IMG/VR virus record: IMGVR_UViG_3300008113_005947
Location: 1 to 64,000 of that record
From: a virus
Reading direction: 5' to 3' (one strand)
Length of the DNA: 64,000 nt
A program made the translations under genes and the position numbers. The notes below the pieces were generated by a model that saw only the letters and a list, made by a program, of their open reading frames with translations, was not told the DNA's origin and searched no databases. Below, piece by piece: positions 3,950 through 64,000 of the stretch. Numbering within the stretch: the first letter of the stretch is position 1; every line of letters starts with the position of its first letter.

Positions 3950-3950
3950 C

Positions 3951-17526: not shown

Positions 17527-17952
17527 ATGAATCAGTTTCTGAATATGCATTATACTGATAATAATGTAGATTCATTTGAACAAGAATATTTCATATGCGT
17601 ACATAGCAACGGGTGGGTACATAGTATCAGTCACTTTGATATGCCACATAATAACGTACTAGACATTAAATTTGATGATGTTGATAGTGACGGGACCAAA
17701 CATGTACAGTGGTTTGGGGGAACAACAAAGGAAATTACTGTTAAAAAATTGACAGTTGACCAAGCTAAAGAAATTGTAGAATTTATAGATAAAGTACCAA
17801 ATGACGCAACGTTACATATATATTGCGCTAAGGGTAAAAGCCGTAGCACTGCAATAGCTAAATTTGTTGAGGAATATAGAAACAACAGTACATTAGATAT
17901 TAGTCATAACCAGTATGTATATACTATGTTGAGGGAAATAGTTCATGTTTGA
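17527..17952 (+). CDS. CX5R phosphatase-like protein
   Basis: 141 residues from ATG 17527. A TTG at 17506 has a better Shine-Dalgarno (AGAGGA) and cannot be excluded; it would add seven residues. HIYCAKGKSRSTA contains the CX5R loop (C100, R106) of the protein tyrosine/dual-specificity phosphatase fold, which uses a cysteinyl-phosphate intermediate. The His before the loop and the Ser/Thr after Arg fit. The general-acid Asp is not certain. The substrate may be a phosphoprotein, a sugar phosphate or an RNA end. It lies between oxygenase genes. Confidence 0.65.
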   Translation: MNQFLNMHYTDNNVDSFEQEYFICVHSNGWVHSISHFDMPHNNVLDIKFDDVDSDGTKHVQWFGGTTKEITVKKLTVDQAKEIVEFIDKVPNDATLHIYCAKGKSRSTAIAKFVEEYRNNSTLDISHNQYVYTMLREIVHV

Positions 17953-31947: not shown

Positions 31948-32549
31948 ATTTTTTCAAAAGCTGTTTGCCATGGATCAGGAACTTTAATTGGTTTGACGTT
32001 ATGCCAATTGCATTGTATAAAACTTTCAATAGCCATTCTTGGAGCCATTTGTGCAGATTCAGTGCCGTTCTTATCTTTAAATTTCCAAACAGTAGCATCA
32101 TCACACAACATAACTCCACCAGGAACTAGTAGTTTAAACGCTAGTACTAAATCTGTCAATACTCCGGCTGCCCTATGGTCACCGTCAATGTAAATTAATT
32201 GGGCCCTAACGCCACGATTGATTAAATCAATTAATCCATCTTCACTATGCTTGCGGATATATTCTACATTCTTATGTTTGCATTCGTTCAAATTATATGT
32301 GAAGTTGTTATGTATAACTAGAGGATCTTCACTCATATCATTACTGCCCACATGAGGATCGACAGCATAGATTTTAAGATTAGGATTGTGTGGCGTTAGG
32401 TTATCTGCTACCCAAAAAGTTGTATTACCTTCAAAGACACCTACTTCAATATAAGTTTCAGGTAATCCATATATGTTTATGAGATGGGCGATGTTCTGCA
32501 TAGAGCCCGCCCCACCACAACTAAAATCCATTGTGATTCTATATGACAT
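31941..32549 (-). CDS. Class I SAM methyltransferase (Methyltransf_24-like)
   Basis: 202 residues. YIEVGVFEGNTT (33-44) is motif I, YAVDPH (61-66) motif II, and LIYIDGDHRAAGVLTDL (118-134) together with LVPGGVMLCDD follow the pattern of Methyltransf_24/TylF-type sugar or small-molecule O-methyltransferases. It shares one base with the gene upstream, so it belongs to the glycan-modifying trio 31237-34327. Confidence 0.75.
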   Translation of the reverse strand: MSYRITMDFSCGGAGSMQNIAHLINIYGLPETYIEVGVFEGNTTFWVADNLTPHNPNLKIYAVDPHVGSNDMSEDPLVIHNNFTYNLNECKHKNVEYIRKHSEDGLIDLINRGVRAQLIYIDGDHRAAGVLTDLVLAFKLLVPGGVMLCDDATVWKFKDKNGTESAQMAPRMAIESFIQCNWHNVKPIKVPDPWQTAFEKIC

Positions 32550-34384: not shown

Positions 34385-37300
34385 TTATATATTTTTTATG
34401 AAGCCACCGCCAGTGCCACCACTACCCACTGTAGAAGGTGATGATACTACCGAAGAACCTATTTGTATTGGGCTAGACACATATACAGCATAACTATTTG
34501 TTCCGGATTGATGTAAATCGTTTCTTCCCCAGAAGTATAATGCATTGTTAGTATCAGTAATCAAACTGAATTCATTACCTGCACGAACTTGTGTCCAGCT
34601 ACCGGAAGCTACTACTACTGGACTACTATTTATTATTCCAGTTAAACCAGTATTCACTTGCACCGGGCTTGATTTATTTACAGTGGTATTATCACCCATC
34701 CCTCCGTATGTATTAAATCCCCAAAGCCATATTTGTGAGAATTTATCTATATAACCACCAACGTTGCCGCTTTGTGCTATACTAACAACATTACCTGATG
34801 CTGTTATTTGTACTGGACTACTGCGATATATCGTAGTATTATCACCTAATTCTCCTTGAAGATTATAGCCCCATGCCCATAAGTTATTATTGATATCTAT
34901 AGCAAATGCATTCTCTACATTAGTACCTTTAGATACTACTTGTTTAAATAAACTTGAACTTGCTACTTGTACTGGACTACTTCTACGAACAGTATTGTTA
35001 TCACCTACACCCCCGTTTTGACCAAGACCTGTAGCAAATATTTGTCCAGTAGCTCTTAAAAGATATATGTTATTGATGCTAGCTGCCACTTGTATATGCT
35101 TTTCAGTACCAATTTGATATGGACTACTTCTATCAATAGTAGTGTTGTCTCCCAACTGACCGTAAATATTTCTACCCCAAGACCAGGCTATGTTATCAGT
35201 ATCAAGTGCAACGGTGAAGCCACTATCGCTAACTGCAACTTGCAACCAACGTTTACTTGCAAATACTTGTACTGGGCTACTGCGTGATATAATAGTGGCA
35301 TCACCCAATTGACCAGCACTATTATCACCCCATGCCCACAATGTATTATCTGGTTTAATTGCAAAAACAAAAGTTTGTACATAAGTCGCGGCACAGACTG
35401 ATGCCCAAGAACCTGGTATTTGTACAGGGCTACTTCTAGCAATTCTATCTCCCTGTACTAATTGTCCTGCGGCGTTTTGGCCCCAGGCCCATAATGTATA
35501 ATTTGTTTTAATAGCATAAGTAGCGCCTGCTGTGGCGTAACTAGCGCAGTCAACTATAATCCAGCTTCCGCCACCGGATACCTGTACAGGACTACTACGT
35601 GTTATTGTAGTGTTATCTCCCAATACTCCATAATTGTTATAGCCGGTAGCCCATAATGTTCCGTCGTTTCTAATTGCATGTCTGACATAGCCACCACCAC
35701 CACTGCCGCCACTATATTGCCATCCTGCATTATTACCAGCACCAATACCAATTGGCATAGGATTTACTCCGGCTGAACTTCCCCATCCAAATAGTCTACT
35801 ATCTCTAGTTATGCCTAATGTATGACTATAACCAGCACTAACTTGTGACCAACTACTATTGCCTATTTGATTTATCCCTGCTATATAAGTTTGACTTAAG
35901 CCGCCAACAGTTATAGGTGTACTTGTTGTTGTCACCGTTGAGTTATCAGCTAATTGACCAAGACCGTCAGTTCCCCAGACATATAATAGACCATCAGTTT
36001 TCAGAGCCGTTACATAGGACGCTCCCACGCCCACCGTAATAAAACTTAAACCTATTGTAGTTCTAAGTTTGTTAGGATATATGAATGGATTTTGGCCTAC
36101 AGTATTAATTTGTACTGGGCCAGCAATTAATCCAGTAGTATTATTTCCTATATTACCTACTGGATTATTTCCCCATGCAAATAATAATCCATCACTTCTT
36201 ATAGCACTTACATAAATTGCATCATAATATGCAGTAGGCGTTCTACCTACAATTGGATAGGTATTATAGTTTGCAATTTTTGCGACTGATACTGCAATCC
36301 AGCTACTTGTTCCTATTTGCACAGGACTACTGCGATATATTGTAGTATTATTACCTAATTGACCATTGGGGCCATTATTTCCCCAAGCCCATAATGTAAA
36401 ATCTGCTTTAATAGCAAATGTTGTGCCACCACCAGTTGATACTGCAATCCAGCTACTTGTTCCTATTTGTACAGGACTAGAATAAAAAGCAAACGTATTT
36501 GCTGTATACACTGAATCAAGTTGAACTGGGCTACTTTTTGACACAACCGTGTTATCTCCGAGTTGACCCGTAAGACCATTGCCCCATACAAACAATCTGT
36601 TAGTAGTACCATCATTCAATAGACCGATAGCAACACCATTATTACCAGTACCAGACCCGATAGATACCCAACTACTTGTACCTATTTGCACAGGACTACT
36701 ACGTGTGATTGTAGTGCCATCACCTAGCTGACCAACATTACCAAGTCCCCAAGACCATATTGTACCAGTTGTTGTTCTAGCTATGTATGAGCCGGCGCTA
36801 CTAAAAATTGATACAATTTGTGTAAAGGAATACCCGGACATAATTTGCACTGGACTACTACGATACAATAGATGATTTGAATCATCTCCAAATTCTCCAT
36901 AATTATTCCATCCACCTATGTTGTATAATTGTCCTAATGTATTAATTGCGGCTTTAGTATATACTGCTATTGCTACACTACTCCAATTATTATTAGAACC
37001 AATTTGCACAGGGCTACTACGTGATACGGTAGTACCATCGCCTAATTGACCATACGTGTTATCACCCCATGCCCACAATGTACCATCAGTTTTTATTGCG
37101 AGTACACCTTGCGTCCCGGCGCCTTGTCCACCTTGGGCGGCAGCAGTAGTCCAGCTACCTAAAATTTGTACTGGTCTACTACGTGATATAGTATCATTTT
37201 GACCCAATTGTCCGTATAAATTTTGACCCCACGCCCACAATGTGTTGTCATCCATTATAGCTATCTGCATTGCTCCAGAATCTGCACCAACACTAAATAT

Positions 37301-40300
37301 CTGCGTCCAACTTGTACCATTAGTACCTATTTGCACAGGACTACTACGAGCGATAGTAGTACCATCACCAAATTGACCTACGTTACTATTTCTACCACCT
37401 ATAGAAATTAAAAATCCCTTTGTAGTAATAGCAAATACTGCGATGCCGCCGTCATTGGTCGGAGTACCACTAGATGCTAAAACATACGATGTAGTAGCAC
37501 TTAATTGTACAGGGCTACTACGATTTAATGTATCATTTAATCCAAGTGCTCCTGTCAGATTTCTGCCCCATACGTAAAGTAAATTGTTTCTTATAGCTGT
37601 AGAAATAGTACCGGCTACAGCATAACTCCAAGTATCACTACCCATTTGTACTGGACTACTGCGGCTTATTGTTGTATTATCACCTAATTGCCCATATGAA
37701 TTATTTCCCCATGTCCATACTGTACCATCTGTTGCTAAAGCTAATGTATACTGGCCAGTACCAGATCCGTCTTGACTTCCCATTGTAGCCATAATCCAAC
37801 TATTAGCCGTTCCTACTTGTACCGGGCTACTACGGCGTATTGTTGTATTAGTACCTAATTCTCCTTGAGTATTTTCTCCGCATACATATAACTTACCTAA
37901 AATGTCAATCATTCTAAAGCCTTCACCGGCCGCTATAAAAGTAAAACTACTAGTAGTCATAATTTGAATCGGGCTTGATTTATTAACAAAGGTGTTATCA
38001 CCCAGCTGTCCATTATTATTAAGTCCCCATACAAATAATTGACCTAATTTGTTTATAGCTGCCATACCACCTAAACTATTGCCACCAGATACAGCAAGTT
38101 TTGACCAAATTGCTAATGCACCTATTTGTACAGGGCTACTACGATTTACTGTAGTGCCATCACCTACTTGCCCAAATGAATTGCTTCCCCAACCCCATAA
38201 GGTGCCATCTATTCGTATGGCATGGGCGCAGCCTGCGGCAGCACTAATCACAAGCCAACTACTAGTACCTACTTGTACTGGGCTACTACGTGATATAATA
38301 TCATTTTGACCTAGCTGGAGACCTGCTCCCCAGGCCCAAATACTACCATCATACCTTAATCCCATAGTAAGTGCGTTACCTGCAGATATATCTTTCCATA
38401 TGTTAGGATTTAAAATTTGTACTGGTTGACTGCGATTTATAGTTGTACCATCACCTAATTGACCCTGGTTATTATAACCCCATGACCATAAATTATATGA
38501 AGTATCAATAGCTAGTTTATGCCCAGTACTAGTGTAATTTGTAGATGCTAATTGTAACCAACTACCACCCACTTGTACAGGATTACTTCTGTTAATAGTA
38601 TCATTCTGACCTAATTGTCCGTATACATTACCACCCCATACATATAATTGTTTTGTTGAGTTAAGAATGTACCCGCCGGAATTGTAGTCACGCAAAGTAT
38701 CACCGGCAACTATACCTAAGCTACCAAAATAATTGCTTCCCCAACCCCATAATGTACCGTCTGGTTTAATACCAAAACTATTTCTAGCTCCAGCTGAAAT
38801 CACACTCCAACTACTTGTGCCTATTTGCGTTGGACTGCTTATTAAATTATTTGATGTAGCGGCTATTACAGTAAAATCAAAATCCACTGCAACAGGCCAT
38901 GATTGATTAGTGGTGATTCCTATTACACCTACTGGTGGATTGCCCCATGCAAATAATTGTCCATCTGGTGCAATAGCATGAGATTTTAAATATCCTGCAC
39001 TAACATATGACCATTCATTTCCACCAACACCTACATAAAAATTATTTGCAGCCACTCCACCAATAGTTGAAACTTGTACAGGGCTACTGCGATTAGATAA
39101 TGATGAGTCACCTAGTTGACCACTAGTGTTTAATCCCCAAGCCCATAATGTATTATCTGCACGTATTGCTACATTATGTGATAACCCTGCAGATATCATT
39201 TTCCATGAAGGTAGCATTATCAAAGTACCAACTTGTACTGGACTACTACGGCTAATTGTGGTATTATCACCCAGTTGACCTACAGCATTAATACCCCAAG
39301 TCCATATTGTGTTGTCTTGTCTGAGTGCCATTGTGTGAGAGCCACCTACGGATATCTGAGTCCAACTACTTGTACCTATTTGTATTGGACTGCTACGATT
39401 TAATGTATCGCCAAAGCCAAGTTGACCCACTGCATTATTTCCCCAAGTCCATAATCTACCTACAGTGTCAATAGCACCTACGTGCAATGCTCCAGTAGTA
39501 ATTAATGTATTTGTTCCTATGCTTGTAGGTAAGACTGTAAAGCTAAACCCTGTAAGAATCTGTACGGGACTACTACGATTAATTGTAGTGTTATCTCCTA
39601 ACTGTCCATTGGCATTATATCCCCATGCATATAGTTGACCTGATGTATTAATTGCGTATGTTGTCGCTCCCGCAATGACTCTAAACCAATTAGCTAATGC
39701 ACCTATTTGTACTGGGCTTGATTTTGAATTAACCGTATTGTCACCTAAACCACCTACATTATTGTATCCCCAACCCCATAGTGTACCATCTGTTCTGATA
39801 CCTAGCATGTTGCTATGACCTATAGTCACTGATGTCCAGCTACCTGCTAGTTGTACAGGGCTACTACGATTTATCGTGTCACCAAAGCCTAATTGACCTG
39901 CAGTATTAAGACCCCAAACAAACAATCTACGTGAAGAAGTAATTGCGTACCCTACGCCATCTGCTGAGTTAGTACCAGTCTCAACGTATATTTCAGGTGC
40001 AGTATTATTGCCTAACTGACTTGTAGTATTTTCTCCCCAACCATATAATAGACCTTGGGTATTCAATGCAAAGGCATGATAATTTCCTGCAATTACTTGA
40101 TTGAAACTGGTTGTATTATTAATTTTATTAGGTACTGCTGTGTACAAAATAGATGATGTACCTATTTGTACAGGACTACTTCTTGTGATTGTAGTACCAT
40201 CACCAAGTTGGCCGTTAGAATTAATCCCAAACGCATCAAGCATGTAATTTGATTTTAACGCTAACCCAAAAGTTGAGCCAAAAGTAAATGTACCTATCTG

Positions 40301-49738: not shown

Positions 49739-52700
49739 GTACCGTCCCCCAGTTGTCCATTGCTGTTGTTACCAAATGTATATACTGAACCATCAGATTT
49801 TTCTATTATGTTATGATTGTATCCAGCACTTATTAGTGTATAACTAGAACTACTAATTTGCACTGGACTACTTCTATTTATCGTAGAAGAATCGCCGACT
49901 TGTCCATTTACATTGTAACCCCAAGCAAATAACAATCCTGAGGAATTTTTTGCTAAACTATGATTTTCTCCTGAACTTACACTACTCCAACTATCTGTAC
50001 CTATCTGTACGGGACTACTTCTATAATAATTACCATAATCAACTGATCCAATTTGTACTGGACTGCTTGCGTTGGCTGCGGCAACAAATGACATACCGGC
50101 TAATTTATACTGTACACCGTATGTATTTGTATTGTTTTGTCCCAATTGACCGGTAGTATTTAATCCTGATGCTACCATCTTATAACCTAATACAGGATCA
50201 TTAGACATAACTGCTGTTATATGTGAACCACCTGATGCTAGTAGGGTAAAGTTATATGTGCTTAATTGTACTGGACTAATTCTATCCGTAGTACTTCCAT
50301 CTGATAATATTGAACTTGAACCACCATTGGATCCCCATGCAAACAAGCTATTATTAGATAAGATACCATATGCAAAAGAATAACCTGCAGATACAGTACT
50401 CCAATTACTGTTACCTACCTGTGTAGGACTACTTCTATTTTGAAGTAAAGAAATTTGTACTGAGTTTATTGATCCTAGTTGTACTGGACTGCTACGATTT
50501 ACGTTTTGATTATCACCTAATGAAACCCATCCAGCTGAGTTGAAACCCCATGACCAAACTAGTTCTTGATTTTGTGCTGTAGCGCCTGATATCGTTGTTG
50601 TAGCAAAGGTACTATCATATCCTAAAGATAATTTACTCCAAATAATTAAAGGTAAGTTGCCAACCCATGATGAAATTATTTGCACAGGACTACTACGTGA
50701 TACAGTTGTAAAATCTCCTAGTTGTCCTTCATTATTACGACCCCACATCCACAGTACACCACTTGTTGATATAGCACCTGAATGTGAACTTCCTGCAGAA
50801 ATAACAGACCAGCTACCTGCAATTTGTACCGGGCTACTACGTGATATAGTAGTATTATCTCCCAATTGGCCAGTACTATTACTTCCCCATGACCATAGTG
50901 TATTATCAGTTTTCAATCCTAATGCATGTGTTGTTGGGGTGACAAATCCTGTAAAGTTAGAAGCATTTATCTGAGTCCAACTACCTGGTATTTGACTAGG
51001 TGTATATTCAATATATCCTGTTGACAATTGTACTGGACTACTTTTGTTAATAACGGTATTATCTCCTAATTGACCAACACTATTTGATCCTACTGTAAAT
51101 ATTGACCCTGATGAATTTCTAAATGCGGCATATGAACTTCTCACCGATACAATAGTATTGTTAGTTGAAGAACCTACTTGTCTTGGTTGGAATTGGGTGC
51201 GGCTGGCCAGTGCAAAGTTATTTCCTGTTTGACCAACATTATTACTTCCCCATGACCATAATGTACCATCTGTCTTAACAGCAAATTGATTGTTCACACT
51301 AAAATTGTCATTACCGAAACCTACTTGTGTCCATGAACCTGCAATTTGTACTGGAATAGGTTGAAACATAGATAACGATAAAACGCCGGACCACACTGCA
51401 CCTGTGATTGACTTATTAGTAAGAGTTAAATCACCTAATTGACCTGTTGTGTTAAGTCCCCAAGCCCACATTTTTCCAGTTGGTTCGTTTGAAACTAGTA
51501 TATAGTTTCTTTCAAAACCACTGAACAGTTGTATAAATGAGGCGCTGTTGGCAGTATTTAAACTAAGTAGCTGTACAGGGCTACTACGACTAACTGTTGA
51601 TGAATCACCTACTTGACCACTATTATTTCTACCCCAAGCAAATACTAGATAGTCTGTCCTTACTGCTGTAGTAGAACGGTCTGTAGTTGCCAATGTAATC
51701 CAACTAGCGTCAGTTCTCACTTGTACTGGACTACTACGATGCACTGTGTCATTAAGTACTCCTAATTCTCCGTTGTTGTTAGCACCCCATGCAAATAATT
51801 GTCCTAATGTATTTAAATATGCAAATCCATTAGCATACGGACGCATTTGTGATACGTTTGCAAAACCTGATGTAACTTGTACCGGGCTACTACGATTCAC
51901 GGTAGTATTTGATGCAAGCTGTCCAAGACTATTACTACCCCAAGTCCAATATGTACCATCGTTTTTCAATGCCATACTCATTGCGGCACCGCCCCAGATA
52001 TTTGTCCAGGTACCTGCAAGTTGCACTGGACTACTTCTACTGGCAGTAGAACTATCACCTAACTGACCGTTACTATTAATTCCCCATGCCCATAATGTAC
52101 CATCTGTCTTAATAGCTAACATATGAAAGTTTGACCTGCCTGTCATAAGAACAGACCAACTACCGGCTATTTGAGTTGGGCTACTACGTGATATAGTATC
52201 ACTTTGACCTAATTGACCATCGGTATTACTACCCCATGCCCATAATGTAGCGTCATCTTTTATACCAAAAGATGCACTGTTTGGTGCGTTTGTATTAGCA
52301 CCTGCAACTAGGGTCCATCTTCTTACTCCACCTGCTGTAAGTACAATAGGACTAGATTTAGTAACTATGGTGTTATCTCCTAATGCACCAGCAGTACCTA
52401 ATCCATACATGTATAATGTATTATCCCCCCTTAGAGCCATAGTATGACTATCTGAACCGGCTATTTGTGTGAAGCTATAAGTAATTCCCAATGCCTGATA
52501 TTCGTTATATCCCCATACCCATAATGTACTATCTGATTTAATTGCCGCACTACTGTACTGTCCTGCAGTGACTTGTGTAAAACTAGAACCAACTTCTAAT
52601 TGAATTGGTCTAGGAGCCCACAATCTATAAACAACATTGTTACTAATAGTGAAGGGATATAATGTTGTGCTACCCAGATAATAATTACCTGCCGCAGATA

Positions 52701-55700
52701 CCTGTACCGGGCTACTACGATTTATTGTAGTGTTGGTGCCCATAGCTCCTATTGAACCATTACCCCAAGTCCATGCAATACCATTATTATCGACACCGGT
52801 AATTGTTTGTGCGCCTTGAGATGAGAATGTATATGATATTGGGGTTCCTATACCTGTGCCCGGACTTCCCGATTGTGTATAAACGAAATTGGTAGCTATC
52901 TGTACTGGACTGCTACGTGAAACGGTAGTGTTGTCACCCACAAGTCCAAGACTTGTACTCCAGCCCCAACCATGTAATGCTAATGATGCTTTGTTTGATG
53001 AATATTGAACACCAAAGAATCCTCCGTTATTTGTACCACTACTCTGGTCTGCGTATCCATAAACCTGAGTCCAGCTGTTAGCACCTATTTGTACTGGACT
53101 ACTTCTAGCTACTGTATCATTTTGTCCACAAGATCCATTAGTGTTTACGCCCCATGCAAATAATCTTCCAACACTATCAATTGCTGCCATGCCACCTTGT
53201 GTTGTAGCAACTGCACTCCATGTACTAGCACCTATTTGTACAGGACTACTACGGTTTACTGTATCATTCAACCCTAAACCACCTGCACCATTCGCCCCAC
53301 TGTTAAGTCCCCAAGACCATAATGTGCCACCGGTTTTAATTCCTAAAGCCATATCTCGTTTAATACTGATAGTAACCCAACTACCAGGCACTTGTACAGG
53401 ACTGCTACGATTAACAGTATCATTTAAACCTAACACACCTGATGTGTTTAACCCCCACATATACAATCTACCATCATTAGTTATTGCGGCAGTTACTTCA
53501 CCAACTTGTGATGTTGTAAAGAAATTGAAAGTTAATCCTGTTGTCCCTGCTACTTGAACTGGACTACTTCTAGCGACAGTAGTTAAATCTCCTATTTCTC
53601 CATTGGTATTACTTCCCCAACTCCACAGTGTACCGTTTGATTTCATAGCATGTGTAGTTGACGTTGTTGTGTTATATCCTGCACTTTCTGATTTTACCCA
53701 TAGATTATCTGTTGCAGTTCCTAGAATACCTGGAATGTTATTATCAGCAGTACTATTATTACCCATTTGACCAAAGTTATTTCGTCCCCAAGTCCATAGA
53801 TATCCGTCATTTGTAACTCCTGATCCAGCACCATATGTTAGCCAATGTTGTCTAAGGGCTGTTCCGCCAGTTAACTGCAATAATCCATTATTGCCCCAAC
53901 CATACAATTGTCCTGTTGTTCTTAGTGCAAGTGTATGTGATGTACCCGGTGCCACTTGACTCCAATTTGTAATACTACTAGCTACTTGTACTGGACTACT
54001 TCTATTAATAGTAGTACCGTCACCAACAGCATATAAAGTATTAGCACCCCAGGCCCATAATGTACCGTCAGTTTTTATAGCATAAGTTACTTCAAATCCA
54101 GCTGACACATAAGTATAACTACCTGCAACTTGTACCGGACTAAGATAAGTTGTAGTATTATTTTGACCTAATTGACCTGAATTATTTTTGCCCCAAGTAA
54201 ATAATCTCCCTGAAGCGTCAATTGCCGCAACATGGCTCCAACCAGTTGCTACGCTAGTCCAACTACTATTTCCTATTTGTAGTGGATATGAAATATTAGT
54301 AGAGGGAAGAGCGTCACCAAAGCCTAATTGACCAATATTGTTGTTCCCCCAAGAAAATAATTTACCATCACTACGTATTGCTATCATAAATCCAGTATTG
54401 TCTGCACTATTTGCACCGGCACTTATTGTAGTCCATGAATATGTTGTTGATAGACTTCTTCCTAATTGTCCAAAGTCATTTGCTCCCCAACTCCATAATG
54501 TACCGTCGGCTTTTAATGCTAACGTAAAATTAGATCCTACACTTATTGCAGTCCATGAACTAGTGCCTATTTGTACAGGGCTTGAAAGTAATTGAGTTGC
54601 GTATATATCGGTTCCAAATTGACCGTAAATATTATTACCCCAAGCCCATAATGTATTATCACTCTTAATAGCCAATGAAGTGAAACCACCATAACCAGAA
54701 GATACGGATAACCATGAACTATTACCTATTTGTATAGGATTACTTCTTGCTATAGCACTACCGCCTGTATTATCACCTAATTGACCATACCGATTATCAC
54801 CCATAGAATATAATTTATCATTTTGATTAATCAATAGCGATGATAATCCACCACCGGATACGTCTTTAAAAAATAATGATCCGGCTTGTACAGCCGTAAC
54901 TACGGAATTGGCAACAGTACCTAATCCTAATTGACCATTGGCATTATTACCCCATGCAAATGTTGCATAATCTTCTCTTATTGCAAATCCGTTATAATAG
55001 CCACCTGCTACTAGTTTTCTAATAGTTGATACATATCCCAATTGTCCAACAGTATTAGAACCCCATGTAAATAATTTACTAGTAGTTGTAATTCCTGTAC
55101 TAAAATCAACTCCAGCAGATACTACACTCCAACTGCTACTACCTATTTGTAGGGGATTATTTATTGTACTATAACTTAGTGATCCAACTTGTACTGGACT
55201 ACTACGGTTTACGTTAGTATTATCACCTACAGAACCATTTGCGTTTGAGCCCCAAGCAAAAAATCTACCAGCAGTATCAATTGCCGATGATACAAAATTA
55301 TTACATGCTACAGCTGACCATGTGCTTGCACCAACTTGTACAGGGCTACTACGACTAATCGTAGTGTTTTGACCTAGTTGACCCCCATCATTTCTGCCCC
55401 ATGACCATAAGAAATAACTAGAATCTAATGCTATTGTAAGTGAAAGACCTAATCCAAGTTTATACCACGTTTTGCCAACACCTGCTTGAACAGGACTACT
55501 TTTGTTAATAGTGGTACTATCACCTATTTGACCAAAATTATTATATCCCCAAATCCATAATGTATTATCAGATTTAATACCACCTGATATGCCGTTTCCT
55601 GCAGTTATACTAGTCCAATTACCTGAAATTTGTACTGGACTACTACGTGCGGCAGTAGTACCATCACCTATCTGGCCAAATGTATTATTGCCCCATGCCC

Positions 55701-58700
55701 ATAATGTATTGTCTGCTTTTCTTGCTAAAAATGTTCTTCCACCTGCGGCGCTGTTTGCTCCTTTGCCTCCTACTACCTCTACAAAAGTAGTTCCGGCAAG
55801 TACTTGTACCGGGCTACTACGAGTGACTGTGGTTGCACCATTGTCGCCATATATACCACCAAACCATTGACCCCATACATATATAGTATTATCTGTTTTT
55901 ATACCTAACGTAGTTTCGGCAGTTACTGCAACAATAGACCAACTGCCACCACCGGATACCTGTACAGGACTGCTTCTATAAGTTACAGTATTATCACCCA
56001 ACTGTGCGTTACTGTTTGCGCCCCATCCCCATAATGTTCCGTCTGACTTGATTCCGAATGTGAAATAATCAACAGGGAATACACCTTCACCGCTAGCTAC
56101 TATCATAGTCCAACTACCTGCAACTTGTACTGGGCTACTTCTACGAATAGTAGTGTTATCTCCTAGTGACCCGCTAGGATTATTATCTCCCCACATAAAT
56201 AATTGTCCGGCACCGACAGTATCTGATAAAATATATCCATTAGTATTGCCGCCGCCTACTAACAACATTGATATAGTTTTTGGAGTATTATATCCCACTT
56301 GTCCAGTATCATTCTTACCCCAAGCATACAGTTTACTAGTGTTATCTATTGCAAGTACATGTGACGCTCCTGCACTTACACTAGTCCAAGATTTAGCACC
56401 AAGTTGAATAGGTACACTACGTGTTACTGTATCTCCTTGACCCAATTGATATACAGAATTAAGACCCCAGGTAAATAATCTACTAGAAGTATCAATGGCA
56501 CTACTATAACTTAATGAAGCTGATATTTTAATGAACTCGTTAGAATACCCATTGGATAAAAATATAGGACTTGACCGTGCTACAGTATCACCTAAACCCA
56601 ATGCACCAAATGTATTATTACCCCATACATACAGTTTATTCTGTCCATCACGTATCATCATAGAGCCACGATTGATATATGCTTCTTTTAAATTTCCAGT
56701 AAAAGGCAATGCAACAACACTACTTCCTATTTGCACAGGGCTACTAGTATTAGCACCCGAAGATGTTATTAAGCTGTTACTTGTGTTTGTGCCCCAGCCC
56801 CAAATTGTATTATCGCTTCTTCTTGCTAGTGCTGTTCCACCACCACTAGCGTTTAATGTACCCTGTAAATCAACCCATCTATTATCTGCAATTGTTCCTA
56901 ATTGTACCGGACTACTTTTATTAACTATGTCACCTAATCCTAAAACACCGGTGGCGCCTTGACCCCATGTGAATATGTATCCGTTACCTATTGCACCTGC
57001 TGAATATTCACCTAAATTAGTAACACCAGTAAATGTTATATTACTGAAAGGTGTAGCTACTTGTACAGGACTACTACGAGATAATGTAGTGCCATCACCT
57101 ATTGTACCGTATGTTTGGTTTCCGCCCCAACCATATATTACGTTGTTAGTATCACTAGCAATGAAGGCAGCATTAGATGAAAATCCAAATCCATTAACTG
57201 GACCTATAATATAATTCCAGTTAGTTGATGTTCCCACCTGTACAGGACTTGATTTAGTAACAGTAGTACCATCACCCAACAATCCACCATCTCCATATCC
57301 CCATGTCCATAATGTTCCGTCAGTTTTTATTGCCGCGCTTGAACTTATTCCTGCCGCTATAACAGAAAAATCACTTAATGATAATACTTGAGTTGGGCTA
57401 CTGCGTGAGACAGTACTAGTTAATCCTAATTGCCCTACGTTATTCATTCCCCAACCCCAAATTTTATTACCAGTAAGCGCAAGTATATGACGCCATCCTG
57501 TAACTACCTGGCTAAATGAAGATAATCCTACACCAACACCTCCATTTAATTGCACTGGACTTGATTTACTAACAGTAGTACCATCACCTATTTTTCCATC
57601 ACCACCATTACCCCATACAAATAATAATCCACCTACTTTTATACCTACTGTAAAGGCATTGCCTGCACCTAATGCATTATAACCATATACACTAGTCCAA
57701 CTACCTGCAATTTGCACTGGACTACTACGTGATACAGTAGTACCATCACCTAACTGACCCTGGTTATTATCACCCCATAAGAATAATCTACTATCTGTTG
57801 TTATTGCCCCATACACACCTTTAGTAAGACTAGCCCAATTAGTATTAGTACCTAGTTGTACAGGACTACTGCGACTAATTGTAGTTCCATCACCTAAATA
57901 CCCCGCACTATTAAATCCCCAGGCCCATAATGTGCCATCATTTCTGATAGCCATGACTGCACCTGATACTACTGATACAGCGGACCATAAAGTACCACTA
58001 TTAATTTGTATAGGACTGCTACGTGATACCGTAGAGCCATCACCAAAAGTTCCTTCAGCATTTCTTCCCCAACCCCACAGTGAGCCACCGCTTAAAAAGA
58101 ATGTAGTTGTGTCTGTTGTTAAACTTGCAGTGTTTACGTTATAACTTAATTTAACGCCTATTTGTACTGGGCTACTTCTACGAATAGTAGCACTATTGTC
58201 ACCAACTTGCCCAAAATCATTAAATCCCCAACCCCACAATGAGTTATCACTTTTGATACCATATCTATTATATGCAGTATAGGCAATAGTTGGTATATAG
58301 TTCCAAGTACCAGCTAATTGCGTTGGCGCACTACGACTTGCTGTTGAAGTATCTCCAACTTGTCCATATATATTATTTCCCCATGCAAAGTATACACCGG
58401 TATTAGTAAGTGCTGTGCCTGCACTAATTTGAGTAATACTTAAGGCAGCAAAAGTTGCAATTTGTACTGGACTACTTTTTGCTACAGTCGTACTATCTCC
58501 AATCGCTCCGCTAGAGTTGCTTCCCCAAGCCCAAAGATTACCATTACCTGTAGTCAGTGCATATGTGGTGTCCTCCATTGTTTTTGCTACTAATGCCCAT
58601 GAAGTTAATGCACCAACTTGGACAGGACTACTTCTATTAATTGTATCTCCTAACCCGAGTTGTCCTGCATTATTATATCCCCATGTCCATAATGTACCAT

Positions 58701-59052
58701 CACTTTTAACTGCGGCGCCGTGAAAGCCACCACCACCTATTGACACCCAGTAAGGTGCAAAAATTTGTATTGGGCTTAATCTAGTTGTATTAGTACCATC
58801 ACCTACTTGGAAGGCTGCATTACCGCCCCATCCCCATAATGTATAATCAGACCTGATTCCCAAAGTATGATTCGCTCCGGCACTTACATTAAGCCAACTT
58901 GATGTACCTAGTTGTATTGGACTTGATTTACTAGCAGTGGTATTATCACCTAATTGTCCTGATGTGTTATCCCCCCAGGCCCACAAGGTGCCGTCACTTC
59001 TGACTGCCATACTATGAGAAGATCCGTTACTAATAGTTGTCCAACTTAACAT
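49735..59052 (-). CDS. Giant RCC1-repeat protein, 3105 residues
   Basis: Second of the three abutting frames, starting MLSWTTISNGSSHS at an ATG that overlaps the upstream stop as TAATG. RCC1 units of about 50 residues fill the chain, roughly sixty at that size. Interruptions such as TPKTISMLLVGGG, YVSTIRKLVAGGYYNG and GITYSFTQIAGS replace part of a blade. It ends abruptly inside a blade with GQLGDGT followed by TGA; the other half of that blade pattern (NTNRSSLTQV) is found at the start of the next ORF. So it may be a separate polypeptide made by coupled re-initiation, or one part of a longer product joined by frameshifting. Confidence 0.85.
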   Translation of the reverse strand: MLSWTTISNGSSHSMAVRSDGTLWAWGDNTSGQLGDNTTASKSSPIQLGTSSWLNVSAGANHTLGIRSDYTLWGWGGNAAFQVGDGTNTTRLSPIQIFAPYWVSIGGGGFHGAAVKSDGTLWTWGYNNAGQLGLGDTINRSSPVQVGALTSWALVAKTMEDTTYALTTGNGNLWAWGSNSSGAIGDSTTVAKSSPVQIATFAALSITQISAGTALTNTGVYFAWGNNIYGQVGDTSTASRSAPTQLAGTWNYIPTIAYTAYNRYGIKSDNSLWGWGFNDFGQVGDNSATIRRSSPVQIGVKLSYNVNTASLTTDTTTFFLSGGSLWGWGRNAEGTFGDGSTVSRSSPIQINSGTLWSAVSVVSGAVMAIRNDGTLWAWGFNSAGYLGDGTTISRSSPVQLGTNTNWASLTKGVYGAITTDSRLFLWGDNNQGQLGDGTTVSRSSPVQIAGSWTSVYGYNALGAGNAFTVGIKVGGLLFVWGNGGDGKIGDGTTVSKSSPVQLNGGVGVGLSSFSQVVTGWRHILALTGNKIWGWGMNNVGQLGLTSTVSRSSPTQVLSLSDFSVIAAGISSSAAIKTDGTLWTWGYGDGGLLGDGTTVTKSSPVQVGTSTNWNYIIGPVNGFGFSSNAAFIASDTNNVIYGWGGNQTYGTIGDGTTLSRSSPVQVATPFSNITFTGVTNLGEYSAGAIGNGYIFTWGQGATGVLGLGDIVNKSSPVQLGTIADNRWVDLQGTLNASGGGTALARRSDNTIWGWGTNTSNSLITSSGANTSSPVQIGSSVVALPFTGNLKEAYINRGSMMIRDGQNKLYVWGNNTFGALGLGDTVARSSPIFLSNGYSNEFIKISASLSYSSAIDTSSRLFTWGLNSVYQLGQGDTVTRSVPIQLGAKSWTSVSAGASHVLAIDNTSKLYAWGKNDTGQVGYNTPKTISMLLVGGGNTNGYILSDTVGAGQLFMWGDNNPSGSLGDNTTIRRSSPVQVAGSWTMIVASGEGVFPVDYFTFGIKSDGTLWGWGANSNAQLGDNTVTYRSSPVQVSGGGSWSIVAVTAETTLGIKTDNTIYVWGQWFGGIYGDNGATTVTRSSPVQVLAGTTFVEVVGGKGANSAAGGRTFLARKADNTLWAWGNNTFGQIGDGTTAARSSPVQISGNWTSITAGNGISGGIKSDNTLWIWGYNNFGQIGDSTTINKSSPVQAGVGKTWYKLGLGLSLTIALDSSYFLWSWGRNDGGQLGQNTTISRSSPVQVGASTWSAVACNNFVSSAIDTAGRFFAWGSNANGSVGDNTNVNRSSPVQVGSLSYSTINNPLQIGSSSWSVVSAGVDFSTGITTTSKLFTWGSNTVGQLGYVSTIRKLVAGGYYNGFAIREDYATFAWGNNANGQLGLGTVANSVVTAVQAGSLFFKDVSGGGLSSLLINQNDKLYSMGDNRYGQLGDNTGGSAIARSNPIQIGNSSWLSVSSGYGGFTSLAIKSDNTLWAWGNNIYGQFGTDIYATQLLSSPVQIGTSSWTAISVGSNFTLALKADGTLWSWGANDFGQLGRSLSTTYSWTTISAGANSADNTGFMIAIRSDGKLFSWGNNNIGQLGFGDALPSTNISYPLQIGNSSWTSVATGWSHVAAIDASGRLFTWGKNNSGQLGQNNTTTYLSPVQVAGSYTYVSAGFEVTYAIKTDGTLWAWGANTLYAVGDGTTINRSSPVQVASSITNWSQVAPGTSHTLALRTTGQLYGWGNNGLLQLTGGTALRQHWLTYGAGSGVTNDGYLWTWGRNNFGQMGNNSTADNNIPGILGTATDNLWVKSESAGYNTTTSTTHAMKSNGTLWSWGSNTNGEIGDLTTVARSSPVQVAGTTGLTFNFFTTSQVGEVTAAITNDGRLYMWGLNTSGVLGLNDTVNRSSPVQVPGSWVTISIKRDMALGIKTGGTLWSWGLNSGANGAGGLGLNDTVNRSSPVQIGASTWSAVATTQGGMAAIDSVGRLFAWGVNTNGSCGQNDTVARSSPVQIGANSWTQVYGYADQSSGTNNGGFFGVQYSSNKASLALHGWGWSTSLGLVGDNTTVSRSSPVQIATNFVYTQSGSPGTGIGTPISYTFSSQGAQTITGVDNNGIAWTWGNGSIGAMGTNTTINRSSPVQVSAAGNYYLGSTTLYPFTISNNVVYRLWAPRPIQLEVGSSFTQVTAGQYSSAAIKSDSTLWVWGYNEYQALGITYSFTQIAGSDSHTMALRGDNTLYMYGLGTAGALGDNTIVTKSSPIVLTAGGVRRWTLVAGANTNAPNSASFGIKDDATLWAWGSNTDGQLGQSDTISRSSPTQIAGSWSVLMTGRSNFHMLAIKTDGTLWAWGINSNGQLGDSSTASRSSPVQLAGTWTNIWGGAAMSMALKNDGTYWTWGSNSLGQLASNTTVNRSSPVQVTSGFANVSQMRPYANGFAYLNTLGQLFAWGANNNGELGVLNDTVHRSSPVQVRTDASWITLATTDRSTTAVRTDYLVFAWGRNNSGQVGDSSTVSRSSPVQLLSLNTANSASFIQLFSGFERNYILVSNEPTGKMWAWGLNTTGQLGDLTLTNKSITGAVWSGVLSLSMFQPIPVQIAGSWTQVGFGNDNFSVNNQFAVKTDGTLWSWGSNNVGQTGNNFALASRTQFQPRQVGSSTNNTIVSVRSSYAAFRNSSGSIFTVGSNSVGQLGDNTVINKSSPVQLSTGYIEYTPSQIPGSWTQINASNFTGFVTPTTHALGLKTDNTLWSWGSNSTGQLGDNTTISRSSPVQIAGSWSVISAGSSHSGAISTSGVLWMWGRNNEGQLGDFTTVSRSSPVQIISSWVGNLPLIIWSKLSLGYDSTFATTTISGATAQNQELVWSWGFNSAGWVSLGDNQNVNRSSPVQLGSINSVQISLLQNRSSPTQVGNSNWSTVSAGYSFAYGILSNNSLFAWGSNGGSSSILSDGSTTDRISPVQLSTYNFTLLASGGSHITAVMSNDPVLGYKMVASGLNTTGQLGQNNTNTYGVQYKLAGMSFVAAANASSPVQIGSVDYGNYYRSSPVQIGTDSWSSVSSGENHSLAKNSSGLLFAWGYNVNGQVGDSSTINRSSPVQISSSSYTLISAGYNHNIIEKSDGSVYTFGNNSNGQLGDGT

Positions 59053-62000
59053 TATGTATTATTTCCTATCTGTCCAAACGTATTATCACCCCATGTAAAT
59101 AAATTACCATACGCATCAATTGCATTGCTACTATTATTAGTAGCGGCAATATACTTATATATCTTAGTACCTACTTGCATCGGACTACTTCTAGGTAATA
59201 AGCTACTATTATTTAACCCGCCGTTAAGATTGGCTCCCCATGTCCATATTGTACCATTTTGTGCCAATGCTACACTATAACTTTTGCCTGCTTGGACATC
59301 TGTCCAATTGCCTGATACTTGTACTGGACTTGATTTAGTAACAGTAGTACCATCACCTAATTGTCCATTACTATTTGTACCCCATGTCCATAGTGTATTA
59401 TCGATTCTAATTGCTGTAGTGAAATTATCAGATACACTACCTATTATCCAACTATTTGTTCCAATCTGCAATGGGCTACTTCTATTAGACGTTGTTATAT
59501 CTCCTAATTGTCCGAATCCATTATAGCCCCACATATATAATCTACCCAAAGCATCTATTGCCATGCTAGTTGACATACTAGCATTAACAAATGCCCAGCT
59601 ACTTAATAGTCCTATACGAACTGGTCTATCATAAAAATTTCCTTTTCCTGTACCCATTTGTACAGGGCTACTGCGTGAAAGAACATCATTAAATTGTCCC
59701 AATTTTCCAGAGTCGCCTTGACCAGTCACCATAGTAGTATCATTCAATACACCAAATATATTAACACTGCCTGCATATAAATTAGTAAAGCTAAATGATC
59801 CTACTTGCACCGGGCTACTTCTAGATAGAGTATCATTTTGTCCTAACTGTCCCCAAGTATTATCTCCCCATGCCCATATTGTTCCATCAGTTCTTAATGC
59901 ACTAGAGAAACTATAACCTGCACTTATTTGAGTATAACTGCTAGAATTTAATTGTATAGGGGATGGTACTATAGTTTTTAGTGCTGTATCTATTTGTACA
60001 GGACTACTTCTTGAAATTACAGTACCATCACCTAGTTGTCCTGAACTATTCGACCCGAATGTAAATAATACTCCCGCAGAATTTATATATCCTGCTTGAT
60101 TTTCTATACCACTAATTAAATCTGTGTTAGGAAGCTGTTTATATGTTCCAGAAAGTACAATGGGACTTGATTTATTAACTGTGGTATCATCACCTAGTTG
60201 ACCTAATTGATTACGACCCCATCCATACACTACACCACCACTAGTTCCGAGTACCGTAGTTGCAAATGCAGTTACGTCAGTCCAACTACCAGGTACTTGC
60301 ACTGGGCTACTTCTAGCTGTTGTATTATTTTGTCCTAATTGTCCGTATAAATTTTGACCCCATGACCATAAAGTATTATTAGATTGTAATGCTACTACAC
60401 CATATAAAGTAGATACAACTTTAGTCCAAATATTCAATGTACCAACTTGTACTGGGCTACTTCTATTAATTGTAGTTCCACTACCTAAATTTCCATTGAC
60501 ATTGAGACCCCAGGTCCACAGTGTGCCATCTGTTTTTACTATAGCTACATATGATAAACCTTGACAAACTGAACTTATGCCACCGCCAAATATTTGCACA
60601 GGACTACTACGACTAATTGTACTATTATTCCCTAGTTGACCTACGGAGTTACTACCCCAAGCATACAATCCACCATTACTTGTTAAACCTATTGTGTTTC
60701 CATTTGTAGTATAAATTTTAGTCCAATTGAGAGCAGTTCCTATTTGTATCGGACTACTGCGATATATTGTAGTATTATCACCTAGTTGTCCAATATTATT
60801 GTATCCCCATCCATAAAGAACACCAGAAAAATCTACTGCAAACATACTTGCAGAACCAAAATCACCACCTAAGGTTCCTAAAAAGCTAAATGACATTGTA
60901 CTAACTTGCACTGGACTACTTTTTGACACTGTAGTACCATCGCCATATGACGGCGTTGTAACGCCTACAGTTGAACCCCATGCATATAAGTATCCACCAT
61001 TTTTTAATCCAAAAGTAGTAGAACCCATTGATACTTGTAGCCAACTATTAGAAGAAGTTATAGTTGCAAGTTGACCGAATGTATTACTACCCCAAAGATA
61101 TAAGCTATTATTAATCAAACCCATAACGTGTGAACTGCCTGCGGCAATTTGAGTCCAACTACTTGTTCCTATTTGTATAGGGCTACTACGATAACCCATA
61201 TTAGATTCTAAGTTATTTGCTAATACTCCAAATGTTCCATTGCCCCAACTCCATAATGTACCATTACTCTTAGTAGCGATAGTAAAATCACTTTTTATAC
61301 TTACTAAATTCCAACTACCACTAGTTTGTATTGGGATTGAACGAGTGACTGTAGTATTATCACCAACTTGGCCACTAGAGTTAAGTCCCCATACAAATAA
61401 TCTCTTGTCTGTTGTTATTGCGGCACTAAAAGATGCGCCGGCGGTTATTAAACTCCAGCTACTATTACCAACTTGTAACGGGCTGTTTCTAGCTGAGGCT
61501 GAACTTCCAGTACTTGTTTGTGTTGGGCTACCTTTATCAACTGTAGTATTATCACCCAATTGACCTGTAGTGTTAAGTCCCCATGTATTAAAATTACTAA
61601 GAACATCTAGTCCATAAGAACTATATGCACCTGTAGAAACATAAGTCCAACTGCTAGTACTTACTAAAGAAATTTCTCTAACTGCTGTATTTACTATCTG
61701 TACAGGATTACTTCTTGCTATAGTAGTACCATCACCCAACTCACCATTTTTGTTTCCACCAAATGCAATTGCATATCCTTGGCTAGAATAAGCTATAGTA
61801 TGAAACTGAGTGTCAGTACTTGCAGGAATGCCAGCACCACCTGCATATACTTGAGTAAATGATATACCTGTAGATATTTGTACAGGACTACTTGTATTGT
61901 TTATTGTATTATTACCCAACTGTCCTGCAGAATTCAAACCCCAGGTAAATAATCTACCTAGGCTGGTAATCCCGACTGAATGAAAGGTTCCAACAGAAAT

Positions 62001-64000
62001 ATTAGTCCAATTACTGTTACCTACCTGTACAGGACTACTTCTATTAATTGTATCTTCTAATCCAAGTTGTCCTACATCATTTCTTCCCCATGCATATAAT
62101 CCATTATTAAGTTGAATTGCTAAAGTGTGACCACCACTATTGCCGCCGGTTGATACTGCAATCCAGCTACTTGTTCCTATTTGCACAGGGCTACTACGAT
62201 TAATTGTGGTGTTGTCACCTATTTGACCAAGGGAGTTGGAGCCTGAAGCAAATAATCTATAATTAGCATCAATTACCACTGATGTTGAGTCCCCGGCTGA
62301 TATAACAATCCAAGAACTAGAACTTATTTGTACTGGACTGCTACGACTTACTGTTGTAGTGTCACCCAACTGTCCACTGGTATTTAATCCCCAAGCCCAT
62401 AATGTACCGGTAATATTAGTTGCCAATACATGCGTAGTTTTTACACTTACTTTTGTCCAGCTACCTGCAATTTGTACCGGGCTACTGCGTGATACTGTAG
62501 TACCATCACCTAATTGTCCACTGGTATTTAATCCCCAACCCCATAATGTATTATCTGGTTTGATTGCAAATATCGTATCTTTATTGACTGAAGAAGAAAT
62601 CGCTATCCAACTGCTTGTGCCTATTTGTACTGGACTACTGCGTGATACAGTTGTAGTATTATCAAGAAATACACCATTTGATGCTTTACCCCATTGCCAC
62701 AATGAATAATCAAGTCTAGTTGCTAACCCAGTACTAATGAGACTAAACGAATTACCAGAACCTACTTGACTAAATGAGTTAGCTCCCCAACCATATAATA
62801 AACCAGTTGTAGTTATAGCTAATGCATGTGATTCACTTGCAGTAACACTAGACCAACTAGTTGATGTACCTATTTGTATCGGACTTGATTTACTAACAGT
62901 AGTATTATCACCTAATTGATATGAAGTGTCATCACCCCATGCATACAATTTTCCATCAGTTGTAATTCCATATGAAGCATTATAATTACTTGCAATAACA
63001 GACCAATTGCTAGTTCCTAATTGTACTGGACTGCTACGACTTACTGTTGTACTGTCACCCAACTGTCCTACATTATTATATCCCCATGTAAGTAATTTAG
63101 TTGTAGAATTTATTGCTGTGGTAAATCCATCTCCTGTGGTAGACCCGGCTATATTATAAGGATTTAATGTTGTTACTGCCGGTGTACCTGTTGTAAAATA
63201 TGCGGGATTACCAACTTCATTTAACTGCCATCTTGCACTTGAATTACTATAATAAGTAGTATAGGTGTCCATGTAATAATAAGGCAATGCTATACCTGAA
63301 TAATTATACTGACCTATACCCAATCCTGCATATTGAACAGTACCTGATATACTTGCGGGTGCGCCAGCACCGGTTGAACCTACTTGATTATAATTATATG
63401 GTATTCTAGCTGGTGTAAAACTAGCATTATACATTGCTTGACCGGATATAATACGAAGTCCGTGGATATAACCGTTCCAATATGAATTTGAGGCTCCGCC
63501 TCCATTGGCACCAATAACTAATATTGTTTGTACTGTAATAGCAGTAAGTGTCGTAGTACCAGTTAAGGTTTGGCTTATACCATTAATGTATATTGATATT
63601 GCTCCGGCATTTACACTAATTGCAATATGAGTCCATGTACTAGCTGATATAGCATTTACTGTTACCGTGCTTGTAGTTCCGCCGGCACCGCCTATATTTA
63701 ATAATCCATACTCAACTTGTCTACTACTATTTATACTAACAGCAAAATTATTAGTAGATGCTGTGCCACTATTTCCTGCAATTACGGATCTTACCGCACC
63801 GCCGGTATAATAAACCCAAGCCTCAAACGTGTAGGTATTAGCCAATGCTGTTGGTATACCAGTACCTGTATACCAACTAGATGATCCGTTAAAACTTACA
63901 CTATATGCTTGAATAGTAGTATCAGGTTTGCCACCTGCAGAAACAAGATTCCAATTAGTTTCTGATCCTATCTGTGTAGGGGTACTACGATTAATCGTTG
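59052..64000 (-). CDS. Giant RCC1-repeat protein with LamG-like domain, N-terminus cut by window
   Basis: The frame is open to the window edge: the codons from 63998 down read TINRSTPTQIG and NWNLVSAGG, clearly an RCC1 unit, so the gene starts outside and 1,648 residues are visible. The TTG at 63845 is not a real start. Residues about 25-230 of the visible part form a LamG/concanavalin-like domain (YTFEAWVYYTGG, TWTHIAISVNAGAISIYING, GYIHGLRIISGQAMY), a fold that often binds carbohydrate. About thirty RCC1 units follow. It ends inside a blade with GQIGNNT and TAA overlapping the next ATG. Confidence 0.85.
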   Translation of the reverse strand, partial: TINRSTPTQIGSETNWNLVSAGGKPDTTIQAYSVSFNGSSSWYTGTGIPTALANTYTFEAWVYYTGGAVRSVIAGNSGTASTNNFAVSINSSRQVEYGLLNIGGAGGTTSTVTVNAISASTWTHIAISVNAGAISIYINGISQTLTGTTTLTAITVQTILVIGANGGGASNSYWNGYIHGLRIISGQAMYNASFTPARIPYNYNQVGSTGAGAPASISGTVQYAGLGIGQYNYSGIALPYYYMDTYTTYYSNSSARWQLNEVGNPAYFTTGTPAVTTLNPYNIAGSTTGDGFTTAINSTTKLLTWGYNNVGQLGDSTTVSRSSPVQLGTSNWSVIASNYNASYGITTDGKLYAWGDDTSYQLGDNTTVSKSSPIQIGTSTSWSSVTASESHALAITTTGLLYGWGANSFSQVGSGNSFSLISTGLATRLDYSLWQWGKASNGVFLDNTTTVSRSSPVQIGTSSWIAISSSVNKDTIFAIKPDNTLWGWGLNTSGQLGDGTTVSRSSPVQIAGSWTKVSVKTTHVLATNITGTLWAWGLNTSGQLGDTTTVSRSSPVQISSSSWIVISAGDSTSVVIDANYRLFASGSNSLGQIGDNTTINRSSPVQIGTSSWIAVSTGGNSGGHTLAIQLNNGLYAWGRNDVGQLGLEDTINRSSPVQVGNSNWTNISVGTFHSVGITSLGRLFTWGLNSAGQLGNNTINNTSSPVQISTGISFTQVYAGGAGIPASTDTQFHTIAYSSQGYAIAFGGNKNGELGDGTTIARSNPVQIVNTAVREISLVSTSSWTYVSTGAYSSYGLDVLSNFNTWGLNTTGQLGDNTTVDKGSPTQTSTGSSASARNSPLQVGNSSWSLITAGASFSAAITTDKRLFVWGLNSSGQVGDNTTVTRSIPIQTSGSWNLVSIKSDFTIATKSNGTLWSWGNGTFGVLANNLESNMGYRSSPIQIGTSSWTQIAAGSSHVMGLINNSLYLWGSNTFGQLATITSSNSWLQVSMGSTTFGLKNGGYLYAWGSTVGVTTPSYGDGTTVSKSSPVQVSTMSFSFLGTLGGDFGSASMFAVDFSGVLYGWGYNNIGQLGDNTTIYRSSPIQIGTALNWTKIYTTNGNTIGLTSNGGLYAWGSNSVGQLGNNSTISRSSPVQIFGGGISSVCQGLSYVAIVKTDGTLWTWGLNVNGNLGSGTTINRSSPVQVGTLNIWTKVVSTLYGVVALQSNNTLWSWGQNLYGQLGQNNTTARSSPVQVPGSWTDVTAFATTVLGTSGGVVYGWGRNQLGQLGDDTTVNKSSPIVLSGTYKQLPNTDLISGIENQAGYINSAGVLFTFGSNSSGQLGDGTVISRSSPVQIDTALKTIVPSPIQLNSSSYTQISAGYSFSSALRTDGTIWAWGDNTWGQLGQNDTLSRSSPVQVGSFSFTNLYAGSVNIFGVLNDTTMVTGQGDSGKLGQFNDVLSRSSPVQMGTGKGNFYDRPVRIGLLSSWAFVNASMSTSMAIDALGRLYMWGYNGFGQLGDITTSNRSSPLQIGTNSWIIGSVSDNFTTAIRIDNTLWTWGTNSNGQLGDGTTVTKSSPVQVSGNWTDVQAGKSYSVALAQNGTIWTWGANLNGGLNNSSLLPRSSPMQVGTKIYKYIAATNNSSNAIDAYGNLFTWGDNTFGQIGNNT

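Follow-up and report, generated by a model that had tools for sequence, protein, structure and literature searches.

A giant array of RCC1 repeats split among three genes of a T4-like phage: a probable modular virion fiber

RCC1 proteins of phages and the array in comparison

Proteins built of RCC1 repeats are already known in phages, including cyanophages, and in virions; they are represented by the PHROGs families phrog_4219, phrog_7220, and phrog_16766 and by proteins of phages GAP32, W70, phAPEC6, S-SRM01, BUCT-ZZ01, and LIBA6276. In the Escherichia coli phage W70, three such proteins (listed at 40-43) were detected in virions by mass spectrometry (PMC11370258), and the same has been reported for the RCC1 protein of GAP32 (PMC5259590). 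This work describes an array of RCC1 units that is encoded by three consecutive genes, C, B, and A, in the IMG/VR virus record IMGVR_UViG_3300008113_005947. The stretch analyzed (the window, 64,000 nucleotides [nt]) comprises bases 1 to 64,000 of this linear viral record of 75,325 bp. At a probability of roughly 0.8, proteins A, B, and C make up one giant modular adhesive virion fiber of a T4-like phage.

The array resembles the three PHROGs families in its repeat, in being phage encoded, and (by model) in its seven-bladed fold. However, the W70 proteins, of ∼40 to 43 kDa, have ∼7 units, compared to 55 to 96 units per chain here, and neither lectin inserts nor a multigene split has been reported for these families. 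The RCC1 proteins of the freshwater Kyanoviridae S-SRM01 (three genes, 345 to 406 amino acids [aa]) and BUCT-ZZ01 (701 aa, 14 units) are, like the array, encoded in the fiber region of T4-like cyanophages, beside fiber or baseplate genes, but they amount to one or two propellers each, as opposed to ∼30 in the array, and are annotated as RCC1/BNR with no assigned role. RCC1 propellers are also found in or beside the tail fibers of Pseudomonas phage PollyC, whose gp12 consists of a T7 fiber N-terminal domain (23.1 bits, just under the Pfam cutoff) followed by an RCC1 propeller, and of Clostridioides phage LIBA6276, whose 1,627-aa RCC1 protein adjoins the tail fiber genes; both are much shorter than the array and unsplit, and PollyC has a classical fiber N terminus. 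In outline, the array further resembles the T4 long tail fiber (gp34 to gp37), a long adhesin that has several polypeptides placed end to end and a dedicated chaperone, except that the T4 fiber is made of beta-structured rods, which are trimeric and have a small receptor tip, whereas predicted propellers make up the array. The eukaryotic proteins UVR8, RPGR, HERC1/2, and RCC1 have the same seven-bladed fold but contain only one to three propellers each and act in cellular signaling; the chromatin and Ran exchange activities are confined to the eukaryotic RCC1 and are not expected in a phage.

The original prediction, made from the nucleotide sequence of the window, treated RCC1 arrays of well over a hundred blades in a tailed phage as unfamiliar. 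Phage RCC1 proteins as such are known, as listed above; the size, the multigene split, and the lectin inserts are what is unusual. Searches of the open-access literature, in which few subscription journals are covered, found no account of arrays approaching this size, of phage fibers combining RCC1 with LamG, or of the fixed split, and these three features appear to be undescribed.

The array genes and their products

The three giant open frames lie on the minus strand exactly where the original prediction had placed them, in the order C, B, and A (Table 1); the frame of C, which has at least 1,648 aa up to the window end, is complete only in the full record, at 3,286 aa. Together, the three proteins comprise 11,508 aa (1,208 kDa) and take up ∼35 kb of phage DNA. 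Identification of the repeats as RCC1 was borne out by searches with hidden Markov models (HMMs). The Pfam family PF00415 gave at least 150 matches in the record, nearly all of them above the curated cutoff (21.7 bits) and all of the listed ones within A, B, or C, and zero matches across 14 control genomes; the RCC1-like domain PF25390 scored 1,602 bits in C and 1,807 bits in B and, with A taken as two halves, 1,411 and 1,116 bits. An HMM of the repeat unit had 54, 59, and 93 matches in the three real proteins versus none in their shuffled versions, and B matched the PHROGs profiles phrog_4219 (783 bits) and phrog_7220 (700 bits). The units are typically spaced by ∼50 aa, with pairwise identity near 30%. 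Segmentation with a position-specific scoring matrix yielded ∼55, ∼59, and ∼96 units in C, B, and A, respectively, i.e., ∼210 units or ∼30 propellers, and the earlier estimate of well over a hundred blades was thus right and conservative. The RCC1 matches run throughout the frames; the description of these as almost only RCC1 overlooked two LamG domains in C, one of which is inside the window. Such inserts number ∼3 in the array of the divergent relative G003, 10 in that of G006, and 19 in that of G007, and their positions differ from phage to phage.

Protein C opens with the peptide MSSLAWRLLAVQAASGS; its ATG start codon, with a ribosome site GAGGAGG, overlaps the stop codon of a tail fiber chaperone gene by 1 nt. 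At the other end of the array, the Gly-rich tail of A carries the family motif G-(G/S)-(F/Y)-I-K-N. All three chains, of 324 to 539 kDa, are close to neutral, each with a net charge of +4 to +5. In a scan for promoters and terminators, the real sequence scored no better than its shuffles.

Authenticity of the array

A sequence this repetitive could be suspected of being an assembly or sequencing artifact, which the original prediction had named, along with a nonviral origin, as an outcome that would overturn it. What was found instead were a collinear second contig, viral relatives, and a lack of long repeats. The second contig, G001 (IMGVR 3300042691_016421), matches the array at 99.8 to 99.9% identity and has the same two gene breaks; its sample is possibly not independent of that of the window. 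The break between B and A is kept in relatives at ∼43% identity, such as G003 (3300047560_002167), whose array comprises chains of 4,821 and 5,123 aa. No exact DNA repeat of 50 nt or more is present in the array, so its collapse or invention by an assembler is unlikely. The arrays of G000 and G001 differ in 23 synonymous and 9 nonsynonymous codons, and the frames are open despite near-saturated synonymous divergence, with a ratio of nonsynonymous (dN) to synonymous (dS) divergence of ∼0.3. On the other side, a 42-aa unit that is present in G001 and G003 is missing from A in the window (A of G001 is one unit longer, at 5,159 aa), and the array of a third contig, G002, contains two small indels that are out of register and are best explained as an assembly error. 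Taken together, these data make an artifact, whether in the array or in its gene breaks, extremely unlikely.

Sequencing error as the source of the gene breaks was rejected. A cellular origin of the array was rejected as well: in a single scan of genome contigs, the search for a donor returned 7 loci of 27 to 39% identity in unrelated bacterial metagenome-assembled genomes, plasmid matches were below 60%, and no close donor was seen among the scanned genome contigs and plasmids.

Fold and modularity

A block of seven units, of the kind suggested earlier for structure prediction, models confidently as one closed seven-bladed propeller. The model covers residues 1 to 350 of C, the one stretch with a confident prediction, and was built from an alignment of 66 sequences, with a predicted local distance difference test score (pLDDT) of 90.4 and a predicted template modeling (TM) score of 0.88. 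Its best matches among solved structures are UVR8 (TM score of 0.81, E value of 3e-31) and RPGR (TM score of 0.85). In this model, the N-terminal W-strand is the first strand and three strands lie at the C-terminal end, which is the usual way for a propeller to close.

Among phage RCC1 proteins, 77 of the 86 short open reading frames (ORFs) have exactly 7 units, and 7 of the 10 longer gap-free ORFs have 14, 21, or 35 units, which makes strings of whole seven-bladed propellers the natural reading. Unit similarity at lags of 1 to 29 peaks at none of 7, 14, and 21, so the propeller boundaries are unreadable from sequence similarity. For the giant chains, in which units that are degenerate or bear a lectin have to be counted by hand, a multiple-of-seven pattern is suggestive only. 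By such hand counts, A of G001 (97 units), A of G003 (90 units), and the second chain of L073 (48 units) each lie one unit below a multiple of seven, and the first chain of G003 (92 units) is one above it.

A fixed split site between the chains

The breaks between array genes fall at a single point of the repeat. In all eight internal ORF ends (those of C and B here and of the first chains of G003, G010, L147, G009, G008, and G006), the last residue of the chain occupies the same position in the unit, 13 residues past the WG-type motif (...GQLGDGT), and the following chain begins with the next loop or strand (NRSSPTQ... or SW..). Since the spacing between stop and start codons varies (ATGA, TAATG, adjacent TAA-ATG, or a 28-nt gap), what is conserved is the position in the protein rather than a signal in the DNA. 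Programmed frameshifting was rejected as the main idea on the same grounds and because the G-run at the B/A break is not fully kept in G003; stop-start coupling fits better.

A self-contained propeller, such as the one at the N terminus of C, starts before the W-strand. A chain that ends just past this strand is therefore left with an orphan strand, whereas one strand is missing from a chain starting there. Judging from the sequences, the simplest reading would be that adjacent chains complete each other's blade. A tentative proposal, somewhat short of even odds, is that several giant polypeptides are joined into one fiber by such "split-blade" strand complementation, the orphan strand of one chain filling the incomplete first blade of the next. 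Joining of this kind would call for genes cut at one fixed point of the repeat and would leave the chain of propellers continuous.

The tail fiber slot

The tailed-phage origin was supported, and the array sits in a T4-like tail fiber slot. Upstream, on the same strand, is a gene for a 1,075-aa virion structural protein (phrog_5838) that is 43 to 45% identical over its full length to proteins of the T4-like cyanophages S-RSM4 and S-PM2 and has no relatives in PDB. It is followed by a gene for a 175-aa protein matching tail fiber profiles and by the 189-aa chaperone frame that overlaps C, which contains the Phage_tail_APC domain (PF16778; phrog_4912, tail fiber assembly) and whose actual start is likely to be the internal MANYAHIEDN..., the one seen in its relatives. 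The phage, known only from environmental DNA, is predicted to be T4-like and related to cyanophages. In relatives, the slot holds other fiber-like proteins, followed by T4-type neck, tail, and terminase genes. The cassette itself, consisting of a fiber protein that ends in ...SFITGQNL or similar, the chaperone, the RCC1 array, and a member of a 592-aa family, is shared by several divergent phages.

The array evolves under purifying selection with fast protein divergence: its dN is 0.62, compared to 0.11 to 0.30 for its neighbors. The ends are better conserved (62% identity for the N terminus of C and 73% for the end of B, versus 43% overall).

Function: a fiber and its alternatives

Among the roles offered in the original prediction, a long adhesive or receptor-binding fiber is the leading one, in view of the fiber slot, the adjoining chaperone, the lectin inserts, the fast protein evolution, and the presence of RCC1 relatives in virions. 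The lectin-type inserts, the slot, and the chaperone together point to host attachment. The repeats of this predicted fiber would form RCC1 propellers of seven blades each, arranged like beads on a string (∼30 of them in 1.2 MDa), with the LamG domains inserted in some blades. The short helix-like peptide at the N terminus of C would probably dock the fiber on the virion, aided by the tail fiber chaperone encoded upstream, and the three chains, made from genes with coupled stop and start codons, would probably join end to end through shared split blades, each following chain having its first blade completed by the final strand of the chain before it. The many faces of the propellers, together with the lectin inserts, could then bind polymers on the host surface with high total avidity. 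At an estimated ∼4 to 5 nm per propeller, the fiber would be ∼120 to 150 nm long.

Several points weigh against this reading. The virion location of A, B, and C is itself inferred; in Pfam searches, the three proteins show only RCC1-type and LamG families and no tail fiber domain; and, with two or three very long chains, the array differs from classical trimeric fibers. As to the bead-string arrangement, a model of three propellers (1,066 aa) had low confidence (pLDDT of 53) and was not used, and the hand counts for C plus B, for the first chain of L073, and for L071 do not fit multiples of seven. To our knowledge, there is no cultured or proteomics-studied relative with a giant array.

Instead of a baseplate fiber, the appendage could be a decoration or whisker of the tail sheath or capsid, comparable to the "hairy" filaments seen on jumbo phages. 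Such a structure would still adhere to hosts or surfaces, and this is a version of the fiber reading, albeit an unlikely one: the gene slot adjoins tail fiber and chaperone genes, not head genes. Phage phAPEC6 has eleven RCC1-like proteins together with unexplained hairy filaments on its tail and capsid (PMC7247149), and propellers recur near such structures, as with the Kelch proteins of phage CBB; however, CBB, with hairs of 119 nm, lacks the RCC1 protein of GAP32, and GAP32 has not been reported to be hairy (PMC5259590).

A product that acts outside the virion during infection, as a decoy or scaffold that is secreted or placed on the cell surface, is improbable, and nothing was found in favor of these two earlier suggestions as such. 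The size and repeats would suit a sponge-like decoy, and the N-terminal peptide is partly hydrophobic; yet the array is coupled by its 1-nt overlap to a tail fiber chaperone within a structural operon, divergent phages have kept the cassette, and RCC1 relatives are present in virions. Even less probable is a role in organizing packaged DNA as an inner body. Eukaryotic RCC1 binds nucleosomes, PHROGs places the phage families in the category "DNA, RNA and nucleotide metabolism," and ordering of DNA has been proposed for the phAPEC6 proteins (PMC7247149). Against such a role stand the near-neutral charge of the chains, the lectin-like inserts, the fiber slot, the chaperone, the rapid divergence, and the fusion of RCC1 to a T7 fiber domain in PollyC.

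Related arrays and neighboring genes

A family of related giant arrays (Table 1) was collected by scans with the array and with its 592-aa neighbor. The order of chaperone and then array is repeated in L070, L072, L073, L089, and L092, most of which have a 592-family gene after the array; in viral contigs long enough to show it, members of this family lie downstream of an RCC1 array. The first chains open with a short Leu-rich peptide (MSSLAWRLLAVQ..., MSVHKALLAIQ..., or MLRRALLTIQ...), followed by the strand LYxWGxN, and most of the second chains, where their ends are seen, terminate in ...G(Y/F)I(K/Q).

TABLE 1 Array genes, gene junctions, inserted domains, and downstream genes of the window, with related arrays
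Feature	Position	Strand	Description
C, first protein of the array	59052..64000 in window (gene 68912..59052 in record)	-	3,286 aa, 344 kDa, ∼55 RCC1 units, two LamG inserts; 5' part outside window
B, second protein	59052..49735	-	3,105 aa, 325 kDa, ∼59 RCC1 units; both ends within a blade
A, third protein	49738..34385	-	5,117 aa, 539 kDa, ∼96 RCC1 units; begins inside a blade; Gly-rich tail
C/B junction TAATG	59050..59054	-	1-nt stop/start overlap; in blade just past strand LFTWGDNTFGQIGNNT; fused as one ORF in G003
B/A junction ATGA	49735..49738	-	4-nt stop/start overlap; in blade just past VYTFGNNSNGQLGDGT; site shared by G003, L073, L147, and G006
LamG, concanavalin-A-like lectin domain (PF13385)	63444..63848	-	Inserted within an RCC1 unit of C
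Second LamG (PF13385) of C	64347..64802 in record, outside window	-	Likewise within an RCC1 unit
C-terminal tail of A	34385..34435	-	...GSGGTGGGFIKNI; (G/S)(Y/F)I(K) ending recurs in most related arrays
592-aa protein	32549..34327	-	Directly after array; weak methyltransferase domain; 85% identical in G003
Methyltransferase (PF13578)	31941..32549	-	In conserved downstream cassette
Family 25 glycosyltransferase (PF01755, LPS type)	31237..31947	-	In conserved downstream cassette
G006			At least 4,982 + 4,363 aa; 10 LamG
G007 (L166/L167)	G007:C1:10000-39059		One open frame, 8,626 aa or more; 19 LamG matches, many RCC1 units
G008/L092			4,224 + 2,277 aa
G009/L071			4,228 + 2,701 aa
G010/L073			2,277 + 2,478 aa
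L070, L072			1,782 and 1,783 aa; five-propeller forms, 35 units each

Smaller RCC1 genes also occur in groups. L103, L129, and L140 are represented by six neighboring phage genes, each encoding one seven-unit RCC1 propeller and an N-terminal part of differing length (one with an Ig-like domain), which looks like a duplicated family of fiber tips, and L093 to L095 have six adjacent single-propeller RCC1 genes (447 to 467 aa) with diverse N termini. Relatives of the slot (L033) encode proteins of WFGGG-type repeats that have N-terminal peptides and may represent another propeller family with the same use.

Downstream of the 592-aa gene are the genes for the methyltransferase, the family 25 glycosyltransferase, which might modify the fiber or a surface, and NrdA/NrdB. 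Elsewhere in the window, positions 2314 to 13190 encode at least five radical SAM proteins, two of them with SPASM, beside a weak glycosyltransferase match, a density unusual for a T4-like phage; peptides or sugars could be the targets of modification by this cluster. Two aspartyl/asparaginyl beta-hydroxylase-like proteins (PF05118; positions 15432 to 16151 and 17945 to 19171), the second with a cupin-like part, are possible modifiers of fiber or host proteins. The window also encodes a 219-aa fragment of an AMP-binding (adenylate-forming) enzyme (PF00501, 70 bits; positions 20109 to 20768) and, in an unrelated protein at positions 10519 to 11805, has a weak Kelch-like beta-propeller match (21 bits, below the Pfam cutoff).

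Implications

In 2016, tape-measure genes of ∼9 kb were said to rank with the longest genes of phages (PMC4919401). Investment of ∼35 kb in a single appendage, in a genome of presumably T4 size, would be far above that. If the split-blade joint is real, it would represent a new route to very long multigene protein fibers, one that would be useful in protein design. Phage RCC1 proteins have been filed under DNA metabolism, an annotation that would mislabel such a fiber, and the family of arrays described here makes the alternative, a modular propeller-lectin adhesin of the virion fiber, directly testable.
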